A stretch of DNA of 64,000 nt from Bacteroidota bacterium. Lineage in GTDB: Bacteria > Bacteroidota > Bacteroidia > B-17B0 > Aurantibacillaceae. A program made the position numbers and the translations under genes. The notes beneath the pieces are model-generated. The model saw nothing but the letters and a program-made list of their open reading frames with translations, was not told where the DNA came from and made no database searches. Location: positions 1 to 64,000 of the forward strand of contig CAUJCR010000012.1 in assembly GCA_963169355.1 (NCBI GenBank). The letters are read 5' to 3'. Positions 53,865 to 58,600 of the stretch are shown here, piece by piece. Numbering within the stretch: position 1 is the first letter of the stretch; every line of letters starts with the position of its first letter.

Positions 53865-54239
53865 ATGAAAAATTTAGTTATTATTTTAATTAGTTTTTTT
53901 AGTCTTTCCTTCGGAATTATGGATATTCCAGAGGATATTGCTGGTGCTTTAAAACAAGGAAACACTTCCGAATTAGTTAAAATATTCTCTGACAAAGTGT
54001 CGATAAAAGTGTTAAATCAAGAGGATTTACTAAGCAAACCACAAGCTCAGGCCGTTATTGAAGATTTTTTTAGCAAACATAAAGTAAAAAGCTACCAAAC
54101 AGCACACACCAGCATTGTAAATGGTAATCAGCAATTTATTACAGGTGTATTAGATACCAATAATGGAAAATATAGAATTTCCATATTAGTGAGAGGAAAT
54201 GTAATTTCGCAGTTCAGAATTGAATACGATAATGGATAA
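53865..54239 (+). CDS. DUF4783 domain exported protein
   Basis: 124 residues. A signal peptide (to about residue 17) precedes a small alpha+beta domain of the DUF4783 family (IPEDIAGALKQGNTSELVKI, then AQAVIEDFFSKHKVKSY), resembling an NTF2/SnoaL-like cone. No function is known. In Bacteroidota it is typically encoded just before nadC, as here, and its stop overlaps the nadC start by 8 bp. Confidence 0.85.
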   Translation: MKNLVIILISFFSLSFGIMDIPEDIAGALKQGNTSELVKIFSDKVSIKVLNQEDLLSKPQAQAVIEDFFSKHKVKSYQTAHTSIVNGNQQFITGVLDTNNGKYRISILVRGNVISQFRIEYDNG

Positions 54240-55101
54240 TTACATTTTAAAACACAAAAAGCACTTTAATTTAAAATCCTTTGTAAAAAATGCTTACCTA
54301 GAAGATGTGGGTGATGGCGATCATTCTGCCTTAGCAACCATACCAGTTTCTAAAAAAGGAAAATGCCAACTATTAGTAAAAGAAGCTGGCATTATTGCAG
54401 GCATAGAAGCTGCTAAAGCAATTTTTAAAATAATAGATCCTTCTATAAAATTTAAAGCTTTAAAAAAAGATGGCGATTCGGTTACCATTGGTGATGTGGC
54501 ATTTATAGTAGAGGGCAACTCTCGTAAATTACTAACTGGCGAACGTTTAATTTTAAATATCATGCAACGCATGAGTGCCATTGCTACCAAAACCAACTAC
54601 TTACAACATTTGTGCAAAGGCACCAAAGCCAAAGTAATTGATACTCGCAAAACAACACCTGGTTTCCGTTTTTTTGAAAAATGGGCAGTAGTAATTGGTG
54701 GTGGCGCTAATCATCGCTTTGGATTATATGATATGATTATGATAAAAGATAATCATATTGATTTTGCTGGCGGAATTATTGAAGCTATTGATGCTACACA
54801 AGCCTACTTAAAAAAAACAAAACGAAAACTACCTATTGAAGTTGAAACACGCACTTTGCAAGATGTGAAACAGATTGTAAACAAAGGCGGTTTTCAACGA
54901 ATTATGTTAGATAACTACAGTATTGCCGATACCAAAAAAGCAGTAGCTATCATTGGCAACAAATACGAAATAGAAAGTTCGGGTGGTATTACCGAAAAAA
55001 CTATTGCAGCTTATGCAAAATGTGGTGTTGATTTTATCTCGGTTGGTGCATTAACACACCATGTAAAAAGCCTTGATTTAAGTTTAAAAGCCATTAAATA
55101 G
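54232..55101 (+). CDS. nadC: Nicotinate-nucleotide pyrophosphorylase (carboxylating)
   Basis: 289 residues from ATG 54232 (a TTG at 54220 also opens the frame). NadC converts quinolinate and PRPP to nicotinate mononucleotide in de novo NAD synthesis. Family motifs are LEDVGDGDHSALATIP, GERLILNIMQRMSAIAT, VIDTRKTTPGFRFFEKWAV, MIMIKDNHIDFAGG, IEVETRTLQD and ESSGGITEKTIAAYA. The start lies inside the DUF4783 gene. nadA and nadB are not in the window. Confidence 0.95.
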   Translation: MDNYILKHKKHFNLKSFVKNAYLEDVGDGDHSALATIPVSKKGKCQLLVKEAGIIAGIEAAKAIFKIIDPSIKFKALKKDGDSVTIGDVAFIVEGNSRKLLTGERLILNIMQRMSAIATKTNYLQHLCKGTKAKVIDTRKTTPGFRFFEKWAVVIGGGANHRFGLYDMIMIKDNHIDFAGGIIEAIDATQAYLKKTKRKLPIEVETRTLQDVKQIVNKGGFQRIMLDNYSIADTKKAVAIIGNKYEIESSGGITEKTIAAYAKCGVDFISVGALTHHVKSLDLSLKAIK

Positions 55102-55116
55102 TTTTTACATCAACTA

Positions 55117-55239
55117 CTAATGGCAACAATCGCCACCATCATTGCAATTATTTTTCTTAGTAAAAATTTTTTGATAGGCTTTATATCCAATGTACACAAA
55201 GGCTAAAACAACAATGAGTATGGCAATGATATCTTGCAT
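55117..55239 (-). CDS. FeoB-associated Cys-rich membrane protein type small protein
   Basis: 40 residues. One transmembrane helix (about residues 3-20, IIAILIVVLAFVYIGYKAY), a basic stretch KIFTKKNN, then a Cys-rich tail CNDGGDCCH. This matches the small FeoB-associated proteins of Bacteroidota, which accompany ferrous iron transport genes. The ATG overlaps the GH16 stop as TAATG (shared base 55239), so it should be translated by coupling. No feoA or feoB is nearby, so its role here is inferred from family only. Confidence 0.75.
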   Translation of the reverse strand: MQDIIAILIVVLAFVYIGYKAYQKIFTKKNNCNDGGDCCH

Positions 55240-56510
55240 TAATTTTTATTAATATCTCCAATCTTAGCTGGATTAAGCACTGGCACATTGTGTGTTAATG
55301 TTTGACCATTTACTAAAATCTTCACATCATAAGGCCCTGTAGGTAATTGACTTAAATCTAAAATATGATACGTGGTGTTTTGCAAATGAATACTCATTTG
55401 CTTTTTTTGTTGGTAATCATATACTTCAACAGTTATATCTGACAATGGCTTTCCTGCAATGGATAAACTATACTTGTTATAAAAAATAGGCAACAAAGTA
55501 ATAGTGCCTAACTCGACAGATAATTGCTTTTTGTTATACACAAAATTTACTTTCTTTTTCAGTTCTGTTTCGTACAACTTATTACCATCAATGGTGCGGG
55601 TACTGTGTTCAAATAGCTTATAGTTATTCATGATATTAGTTGTTAGGTTTTCTTTTTCGCCCCAAATCCGTACATAATCTATTTTCACTTCGTTTGGAAA
55701 AGTTGTGCTGTTATCTGGGCCTGGGTTAAAAGCTTTACCATCACGAGCTACCGCACTATTTAATATAAGATTTTGAGCTGTTTTAAAATCGCCCTCGTAA
55801 TACGCTAATGGCTCTCCGTTTAAAAAAAACTTAACATAACCTGGTTGCCACTCTCCCGAAATAATATTCCAACCATCAGCTAAACTATGTTTGGTTTTTA
55901 TCCACGCTCCCCAATTTTTTTGAAGTTTTAAAAAGCCTCCTTTATAATCTTCGCAACCCGATGGGCAATGCACATCTACATGTATTTGATTGGCGCGTTC
56001 TCCTTTCCCTTCATAAAAATCAATCTCTTCATTTGGGCTACCGCCATATAACCAAAAGGCTGGCCAAATTCCCTTTTCGGCATTGGCTTTAAAACGCATT
56101 TCAAAATATCCATACTTATACGTTTGTTTAGATGAAAAAGCCCCTCCCGAATAGTCGTATAGTATTTCTCCTTTATCATTAGGCAACTTATTTTTCTTTT
56201 TCAAAAATTCTAAATCTAAATTCTCGTTGACAATAGGTTGCGGCGTAACGGGTTTTTGAGTAATTAATTTTACAACACCTTTATCTAATTGCACATTTTC
56301 TTTTTTATATAACAAATCTAATTCATATACATAATTACCCCACGGATAACCATATTTCCATTTGCTTTCATCAAGGCTTTCTCCCGAAAACTCATCTGTT
56401 TCTTGCAAAAACCATTTTTGAGTTCCACTTGTTTTTACCTGCCACATAACCTGCGCCGATACAGAGCCAAGCGCCAATAATAAATAAAAAATTAAATGAA
56501 TAACCTTCAT
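55239..56510 (-). CDS. Secreted glycoside hydrolase family 16 protein
   Basis: 423 residues. Signal peptide MKVIHLIFYLLLALGSVSAQ. GH16 beta-jelly-roll domain (about 35-285) with the catalytic signature NEEIDFYEG (E-x-D-x-x-E), flanked by FEMRFKANAEKGIWPAFWLYGG and IDYVRIWGE. GH16 enzymes hydrolyse beta-1,3/1,4-glucans, galactans or related polysaccharides; the target is not deducible. A C-terminal region of about 120 residues is beta-rich and unassigned (VYDYQQKKQMSIHLQN). No T9SS sorting domain or SusCD genes. The stop overlaps the ATG of a 40-residue membrane protein. Confidence 0.88.
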   Translation of the reverse strand: MKVIHLIFYLLLALGSVSAQVMWQVKTSGTQKWFLQETDEFSGESLDESKWKYGYPWGNYVYELDLLYKKENVQLDKGVVKLITQKPVTPQPIVNENLDLEFLKKKNKLPNDKGEILYDYSGGAFSSKQTYKYGYFEMRFKANAEKGIWPAFWLYGGSPNEEIDFYEGKGERANQIHVDVHCPSGCEDYKGGFLKLQKNWGAWIKTKHSLADGWNIISGEWQPGYVKFFLNGEPLAYYEGDFKTAQNLILNSAVARDGKAFNPGPDNSTTFPNEVKIDYVRIWGEKENLTTNIMNNYKLFEHSTRTIDGNKLYETELKKKVNFVYNKKQLSVELGTITLLPIFYNKYSLSIAGKPLSDITVEVYDYQQKKQMSIHLQNTTYHILDLSQLPTGPYDVKILVNGQTLTHNVPVLNPAKIGDINKN

Positions 56511-56552
56511 AAATCTCCCTTCTTATTTCATAAATAGTTTACTAATTAAACT

Positions 56553-56560
56553 CAAAAGTA
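56553..56560 (-). promoter_or_regulatory. Putative promoter box of the GH16 gene
   Basis: Minus strand TACTTTTG (TAnnTTTG), 43 bp upstream of the ATG at 56510. Confidence 0.4.
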
Positions 56561-56599
56561 AGCTAAAATTGGTATTTTCGCTACAAATTATAATTTGTT

Positions 56600-58600
56600 A
56601 TGATTACTGCCGAAACACCTGTAAAGTTTGATCGTCGAAAAGTAAAAGATGATACCTTATTACAACTCTATAAAAACATCTTAACCCCTCGCCTTATTGA
56701 AGAAAAAATGTTGATTTTACTTCGACAAGGTAAAATTGCAAAATGGTTTAGCGGCATAGGACAAGAAGCCATTTCAGTAGGCGTGGCATCGGCTTTGCAA
56801 GCAGATGAATACATCTTACCAATGCACCGTAACTTAGGTATTTTTACCACACGTGGTATTCCTATGAATCGCTTATTTTCTCAATTTCAAGGTAAACCAG
56901 GTGGCTTTACGCAAGGGCGTGATCGTAGTTTTCATTTTGGCACTCAAGAGTATCATATTATTGGAATGATTTCGCACTTAGGCCCTCAAATGGGTGTGGC
57001 TGATGGTATTGCCTTAGCACACAAATTACGTAAAGACAAAAAAATAACCGTTGTGTTTTCGGGTGATGGCGGAGCGAGCGAAGGCGATTTTCATGAAAGT
57101 ATAAACACTGCTGCTGTGTGGGATTTACCAGTTATTTTTGTAATAGAAAATAATGGCTATGGTTTATCTACACCAAGCAACGAACAATTTAGATGTAAAT
57201 CGTTTGCCGATAAAGCCATTGGCTACGGCATAGAAGGTGTAACCGTAGATGGCAATAACGTTTTAAAAGTATATGAAACAGTAAAAAATTTAGCCGAATC
57301 ATTACGCGAAAATCCACGCCCTATTTTATTGGAGTGCGTAACTTTTAGAATGCGAGGACACGAAGAAGCATCGGGTACCAAATATGTTCCTAAAGAATTA
57401 TTTGACGTGTGGGGAAGAAAAGACCCAGTGAATAATTTTGAGAAATTTTTATTAGATGAAGGTGTTTTAACGGAAGAACTCATCGAGTCGTATCGTGCTG
57501 ATATTAAAAAAGAAATTGATGCGGGGCTTGAAATTGCCTTTGCCGAAACATTGCCTCCACCCGATACACACAAAGAGTTATCGGAAATGTATAAACCAGT
57601 TCAAATTCAAGACACCTCTGCTCAATCTGGAACAAAAACCAACAAACGTATGATTGATGCTATAAGCGACGGATTACGTTTAGCCATGCGAAAACATAGT
57701 AATTTAGTATTAATGGGGCAAGACATTGCCGACTATGGTGGCGTTTTTAAAATTACAGAAGGTTTTGTGGCAGAATTTGGGAAAGAACGTGTGCGTAATA
57801 CACCTTTGTGCGAATCGGCCATTATTGGAGCTGGTTTTGGCTTATCTATTAATGGTTACAAAGCCATGGTAGAAATGCAATTTGCTGATTTTGTGAGTGA
57901 GGGCATGACTCAAATTACTAATAACCTAGCAAAATCGCACTACCGATGGGGACAAAATGCTGATGTAGTGGTGCGTATGCCTACTGGTGCAGGTGTTGCG
58001 GCTGGTCCTTTTCATAGCCAAAGTAACGAAGCTTGGTTTTTTAAAACACCTGGATTAAAAATTGCCTATCCTGCTTTTCCGAGCGATGCCAAAGGTTTAT
58101 TATTAAGTGCATTTGAAGATCCGAATCCAGTGATGTTTTTTGAACATAAAGCACTTTATAGAAGCATTGATGAAGATGTGCTAGACGAGTACTACACTAT
58201 TCCATTTGGTAAAGCCCGTTTGGTAAAAGAAGGTAGCCAAGTTACTATTGTTACCTATGGTTTAGGCGTTCATTGGGCTTTAGATGTTTTAAAAGAGCAT
58301 CCCGAAATTTCGGCCGATTTAATTGATTTAAGAACCTTATCGCCATTAGATACCGACACCATTTATCAATCCGTTAAAAAAACCAACAGAGCCTTTGTTT
58401 TGCAAGAAGATACGCTAACAGGCGGAATTGCTGGTGAAATTAGTGCCTTAATAACCGAACATTGTTTTGAGTACCTAGATGCGCCTGTAATGCGTGAAGG
58501 TAGCCTTGATACGCCTGTGCCTATGAATGCCGATTTAGAAAAGAATTTTTTACCTAAAGAGCGTTTTAAAGCTAAATTATTGAAGTTAATCAATTATTAA
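56600..58600 (+). CDS. Fused E1 alpha/beta subunit of a 2-oxoacid dehydrogenase
   Basis: 666 residues. N-terminal half (to about 330) is E1 alpha, with the thiamine diphosphate motif FSGDGGASEGDFHESINTAA and VIFVIENNGYG, and the phosphorylation-loop-like region RMRGHEEAS. The C-terminal half (about 350-666) is E1 beta, with LMGQDIADYGGVFKITEGF, TPLCESAIIGAGFGLS and MPTGAGVAAGPFHSQS. Separate in many bacteria, the two are one chain here, as in Bacteroidota. It decarboxylates a 2-oxoacid, probably pyruvate or branched-chain 2-oxoacids, for an E2/E3 complex. E2 and E3 are not adjacent. Substrate specificity is not decidable. Confidence 0.92.
   Translation: MITAETPVKFDRRKVKDDTLLQLYKNILTPRLIEEKMLILLRQGKIAKWFSGIGQEAISVGVASALQADEYILPMHRNLGIFTTRGIPMNRLFSQFQGKPGGFTQGRDRSFHFGTQEYHIIGMISHLGPQMGVADGIALAHKLRKDKKITVVFSGDGGASEGDFHESINTAAVWDLPVIFVIENNGYGLSTPSNEQFRCKSFADKAIGYGIEGVTVDGNNVLKVYETVKNLAESLRENPRPILLECVTFRMRGHEEASGTKYVPKELFDVWGRKDPVNNFEKFLLDEGVLTEELIESYRADIKKEIDAGLEIAFAETLPPPDTHKELSEMYKPVQIQDTSAQSGTKTNKRMIDAISDGLRLAMRKHSNLVLMGQDIADYGGVFKITEGFVAEFGKERVRNTPLCESAIIGAGFGLSINGYKAMVEMQFADFVSEGMTQITNNLAKSHYRWGQNADVVVRMPTGAGVAAGPFHSQSNEAWFFKTPGLKIAYPAFPSDAKGLLLSAFEDPNPVMFFEHKALYRSIDEDVLDEYYTIPFGKARLVKEGSQVTIVTYGLGVHWALDVLKEHPEISADLIDLRTLSPLDTDTIYQSVKKTNRAFVLQEDTLTGGIAGEISALITEHCFEYLDAPVMREGSLDTPVPMNADLEKNFLPKERFKAKLLKLINY

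Follow-up and report, generated by a model that had tools for sequence, protein, structure and literature searches.

The window, i.e., the whole 64,000-nt stretch of DNA that was analysed, encodes on its minus strand a 40-residue protein, here called SM (for small membrane protein), whose gene directly follows that of a GH16 glycoside hydrolase and converges with nadC (Table 1). The GH16 product resembles the laminarinase/carrageenase type by its match to PF00722 and contains the sequence EIDFYE, which we take to be a catalytic-type motif, and all NCBIfam equivalog models scored far below their cut-offs against it. The TAA of GH16 and the ATG of SM have one base in common (TAATG), exactly as a preliminary description of this DNA had stated. 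On the far side of GH16, a short divergent intergenic region leads to the gene of a 2-oxo-acid dehydrogenase E1, and GH16 thus sits between SM and the divergent E1 gene.

Table 1. Features at the SM locus (window coordinates)
Feature	Position	Strand	Basis or remark
NadC (quinolinate phosphoribosyltransferase), convergent with SM, genus-conserved neighbour	54232..55101	+	gene order
SM, 40-aa single-helix Cys-tailed membrane protein (FeoB_associated/PF12669-like)	55117..55239	-	ORF, conservation, constraint, AlphaFold2
GH16 glycoside hydrolase, signal-peptide-like start	55239..56510	-	PF00722, 62.8 bits (cut-off 22)
Divergent intergenic region, GH16-SM / E1, 89 bp	56511..56599	.	gene coordinates
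Putative GH16-SM promoter box TACTTTTG, exact TAnnTTTG match	56553..56560	-	50 nt before GH16 start
666-aa alpha/beta-fused 2-oxo-acid (pyruvate-type) dehydrogenase E1	56600..58600	+	orthologue is immediate divergent SM neighbour in other families

Read from the sequence, SM possesses one hydrophobic stretch, at its N-terminus, and a C-terminal tail, CNDGGDCCH, with the cysteines C32, C38 and C39. An AlphaFold2 model computed from single-sequence input shows one helix (residues 2–30) followed by a loose coil tail, with a mean pLDDT of 76.7, in agreement with the single transmembrane helix and Cys tail that had been described. Because a Lys-rich stretch follows the helix, the Cys tail should be cytoplasmic according to the positive-inside rule. 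A PDB sequence search with SM gave no match at E values up to 10, and the sole NCBIfam match was unrelated and sub-threshold.

A protein search of 60 genomes with SM gave matches in 40 of them at E values up to 1, many of which were weak and outside the genus. A convincing copy was found in 19 of the 20 genomes of the window's genus, the match in the remaining one (G002) being weak and covering 17 residues only. Six columns of the 19-row alignment are invariant, including C32 and C39, and the Cys spacing is altered in the window SM and its nearest relative (CNDGGDCCH in the window vs. the commoner form CGDGDCGCK). Between SM and this nearest relative, dN is 0.053 and dS 0.271 (dN/dS 0.195), and the ratio ranges from 0.07 to 0.53 among the pairs for which it was computable; judged from these ratios, SM is under purifying selection. 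The ORF goes beyond chance, since its frame is present in 19 of 20 genus genomes and dN/dS is well under 1. A chance ORF, for which the very short length of SM would speak, is refuted by the conservation, the constraint and the family match described below, leaving it a negligible probability, and the 40-residue Cys-rich membrane ORF of the preliminary description is thus a genuine gene.

Against the Pfam family FeoB_associated (PF12669), SM scored 25.9 bits (E = 1.2e-5), 1.1 bits under the gathering score of 27, and a match above the cut-off was obtained in 8 of 41 genomes, five of which belong to the window's genus (G001, G009, G013, G016 and G019). The earlier designation of SM as a FeoB-associated small protein therefore holds for the family type, close relatives passing the PF12669 threshold, but the window SM itself does not reach it. 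SM shares with this family its length, the MQ start, one N-terminal helix, a Lys-rich hinge and a short Cys tail, and the same alignment model caught SM copies located directly after feoB. However, the window SM is not adjacent to feoB, its score is sub-threshold, its cysteines are spaced C-x5-C-C rather than in the genus form C-x4-C-x-C, and it has three cysteines, in contrast to the four-Cys motif given in the excerpt of PMC8749426. Gammaproteobacterial FeoC is likewise a small, Cys-containing protein of the Feo accessory type, although FeoC is cytoplasmic and encoded downstream of feoAB according to the same excerpt, whereas SM has a predicted membrane helix and is unlinked.

In the excerpted text of PMC8749426, PF12669 peptides are discussed as possible FeoC-like elements, their genes following feoB chiefly in Firmicutes and Bacteroidetes, and it is named as an unanswered question whether their ORFs are translated into functional peptides. 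Passages of two other papers place FeoB-associated genes among the responses to an iron regulator or to iron depletion in Bacteroidetes (PMC9478572, PMC10434189), the response of such a gene being 1.8-fold (P 0.040) in the latter, and a passage of PMC8980893 mentions rare fusions of FeoAB to a FeoB-associated peptide, with function unknown. Searches of the open-licence PMC literature brought up no paper on a FeoB_associated member that is orphan or linked to E1.

The junction with GH16 is conserved within the genus. In 17 of the 19 SM-bearing genus genomes, SM starts at the stop of the GH16 orthologue, with an overlap of 1–11 nt (mostly 1 nt; 4 nt in L017; 11 nt in L019 and L023) or a gap of 2 nt (L006 and L011). 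All 17 genus genomes with the GH16 orthologue at the locus retain the SM frame; the loss of the small frame from relatives that keep GH16, raised in the preliminary description as a point against the pair, was thus not seen in the genus. The same pair, with another downstream gene, is present in one genome of a sister genus (G024). In G001 and G014, SM occurs without that GH16, and these genomes have a 34%-identical paralogue of it in the opposite orientation. When 13 GH16 loci were checked for a small Cys-tailed ORF downstream, it was present in two genus members and absent beside all 11 more distant family members. Among the loci examined, the GH16–SM pair was confined to G024 and the window's genus, and the pairing looks local and secondary. 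As an ancient partnership it was rejected, since other families have SM beside E1 or feoB, and GH16 was absent from their fetched loci. NadC was rejected as a partner as well, being conserved within the genus only, with a different downstream gene in G024. Divergent GH16 paralogue pairs were also seen near NadC in the genus (L040, L096, L075 and L076), G001 and G014 retaining the divergent one only, and the GH16 match of G011 (L091) contains an in-frame TGA.

Beyond the genus, SM was found in 62 of 119 Bacteroidia genomes using a 39-position search model built from a 27-row alignment (A2; E up to 0.01). Sixty loci were inspected together with up to 5 kb of flanking sequence, namely 58 fetched from these 62 genomes plus those of G024 and G030, the window's own locus and those of G134, G146 and G171 being left out. 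In 25 of the 60 loci and 15 families, a pyruvate-type E1 fusion gene lies upstream of SM in divergent orientation, which makes it the commonest neighbour; the distance between match edges is 42–233 bp in 22 loci and 1.5–2.8 kb in three. Nine loci have feoB upstream of SM on the same strand, i.e., SM adjoins feoB on its downstream side there, as it does not in the window's genome, and 26 have neither E1 nor feoB nearby; the one locus with GH16 is that of G024, counted within the 25 E1 loci. Clustering of the neighbouring ORFs, with no partner specified beforehand, recovered E1 in 15 families, FeoB in eight and all others in at most four GTDB families. A rough ORF scan of the region preceding E1, run on 40 further genomes chosen from those without E1 beside a fetched SM, revealed three SM-like ORFs that the model had missed (G131, G128 and G106). 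Because the SM–E1 arrangement is wider than GH16–SM, the gene order is best read as GH16 having come between SM and E1, rather than being ancestral there. An association of SM with E1 was not detected in the 119 genomes, E1 being present in 52 of 62 genomes with SM and 50 of 57 without it (52/10/50/7, p 0.61). In one family (f45), SM lies 1–12 bp downstream of a presumably citrate-synthase-like gene (L145, L146 and L169); 90-residue pieces of this neighbour and of another, which we take to be of the MBL fold, gave no Pfam match.

The SM–E1 intergenic regions were also inspected for TAnnTTTG, which we take to be the Bacteroidota -7 box consensus. Toward SM, it occurs in 17 of 22 regions (17 sites, vs. 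a mean of 1.3 and a maximum of 6 sites in mononucleotide shuffles), and toward E1 in 13 of 22 (16 sites, vs. a mean of 1.8 in such shuffles). An exact TAnnTTTG within 130 nt is missing in 5 of 14 genus loci, including both SM loci without the upstream GH16, so that the promoter argument is weaker in the genus than at the E1-linked loci.

The window's genome has its own feoAB (PF02421, PF07664 and PF04023) at about 79.5–81.8 kb of the same contig, ~24 kb from SM. The earlier remark that no feo gene is near thus applies inside the window, but not further along its contig, where the suggested check for feoAB elsewhere identified the genes. Directly upstream of feoAB in this genome and in G018, a 76-aa Cys/His-rich single-helix ORF was observed (L062:9928-10158 minus; L063:8661-8891 minus), which matched no Pfam family above cut-off; from its sequence, it is a candidate second Feo accessory peptide and could be the real partner of the genome's own feoAB.

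SM is confined to FeoB genomes among the near-complete genomes sampled, and is mostly unlinked to feoB. In the first sample (119 genomes), FeoB was present in 58 of the 62 SM genomes, the exceptions being one partial match and three genomes whose completeness is below 90%. Restricting this sample to the 111 genomes at least 90% complete and dropping two partial or odd matches (those of G146 and G171, either incomplete or embedded in a long ORF) gave 54 genomes with both, none with SM alone, 40 with FeoB alone and 17 with neither. The corresponding counts were 45/0/40/17 (p 2e-5) with FeoB-linked SM copies removed, 32/0/18/6 (p 0.004) by family, and 26/0/18/6 (p 0.008) by family without the families whose fetched SM is only feoB-linked; families are the only control for kinship here, and the counts outweigh the p-values because the Fisher values ignore the tree. 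In a larger sample of 296 near-complete Bacteroidia genomes, requested at 90% completeness or more, all 130 SM genomes have FeoB and none of the 49 FeoB-less genomes has SM (130/0/117/49); variants of this count dropped G171 and G304, and the 185 new genomes gave 79/0/74/32 with two matches inside long ORFs dropped. FeoB does not require SM in every genome, since 117 of the 247 FeoB-bearing genomes lack an SM match, partly reflecting copies missed by the 39-position model. Within-family contrasts were noticed in f5 and f12, both with FeoB-linked SM. One genome (G301) carries two SM copies ~27 kb apart (C1:663595-663702 and C1:690952-691059), one of them close to feoB.

The unexpected coupling of a glycan hydrolase with an iron-linked peptide that the preliminary description had pointed out could mean that the two proteins work as a pair, in which SM anchors, regulates or aids the folding of the exported enzyme. 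The start–stop coupling kept in the genus and in G024, with no genus genome seen to have this GH16 orthologue without SM, is consistent with such a pair. However, SM is retained without this GH16 in 2 of 19 genus genomes (G001 and G014) and across other families, is missing beside all 11 more distant GH16 homologues checked, and follows FeoB presence, and its Cys tail and the exported GH16 are predicted to lie on opposite sides of the membrane; a functional pair is thus quite improbable, and the glycan-hydrolase link, while real in terms of gene order, is probably not a functional one. A tie to E1 deserves somewhat more weight but is still unlikely: SM could serve, e.g., as a membrane iron/redox sensor that is expressed together with central carbon metabolism through a shared bidirectional promoter, with the FeoB correlation reflecting iron-dependent lifestyles. 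E1 is always divergent where it neighbours SM, the ORF scan adds three cases to the 25, and promoter-like boxes point both ways, yet 10 SM genomes have no E1 orthologue at the cut-off, no association with E1 was found, and other SM copies lie at feoB or elsewhere.

Marginally better placed, though again doubtful, is the view that SM, as a small membrane protein, deals with metals or thiols in general and makes no contact with FeoB, the co-occurrence of the two stemming from phylogenetic inheritance. The variable contexts, with 26 of 60 loci having neither partner nearby, and the families as sole ancestry control would fit it, but the contrast of 130/130 vs. 0/49, the family-level p of 0.004–0.008 and the presence of the same family directly after feoB in nine loci argue against it. 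The reading we favour, and consider rather likely, is that SM assists FeoB in trans as an accessory peptide and does not partner the glycan hydrolase. Against this reading stand the sub-threshold Pfam score and three cysteines of the window SM, the 51 of 60 loci that do not adjoin feoB, and the conserved E1 link, which a pure FeoB role does not explain.

On this reading, SM belongs to the small, Cys-rich, FeoB-associated proteins of the inner membrane, its N-terminal helix being predicted to span the membrane and its Lys-rich stretch and Cys tail to face the cytoplasm. Its most likely role would be to assist, in trans, the ferrous-iron importer FeoAB, whose genes lie ~24 kb away; the Cys tail may bind metal or sense the thiol/redox state, and SM may thereby stabilise FeoB or adjust its activity, a role proposed for FeoC-like elements. 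In other families the divergent promoter region directly separates SM and E1; in the genus and one sister genus, GH16 lies between this region and SM, so that SM is read as the second gene of a GH16–SM unit by start–stop overlap. The coupling would serve the transcription and translation of SM, not a task shared by the two products. A more far-reaching, and speculative, idea is that a FeoB-dependent SM left the feo operon across Bacteroidia and came to share a bidirectional promoter with E1, linking ferrous-iron import to carbon entry into the TCA cycle while acting in trans on FeoB. At loci away from feoB, the constraint on SM, the promoter-like box and the nesting within FeoB genomes speak for FeoB-associated peptides being functional, a point left open in the excerpt of PMC8749426, and such loci allow the peptide to be deleted with feoB left intact.
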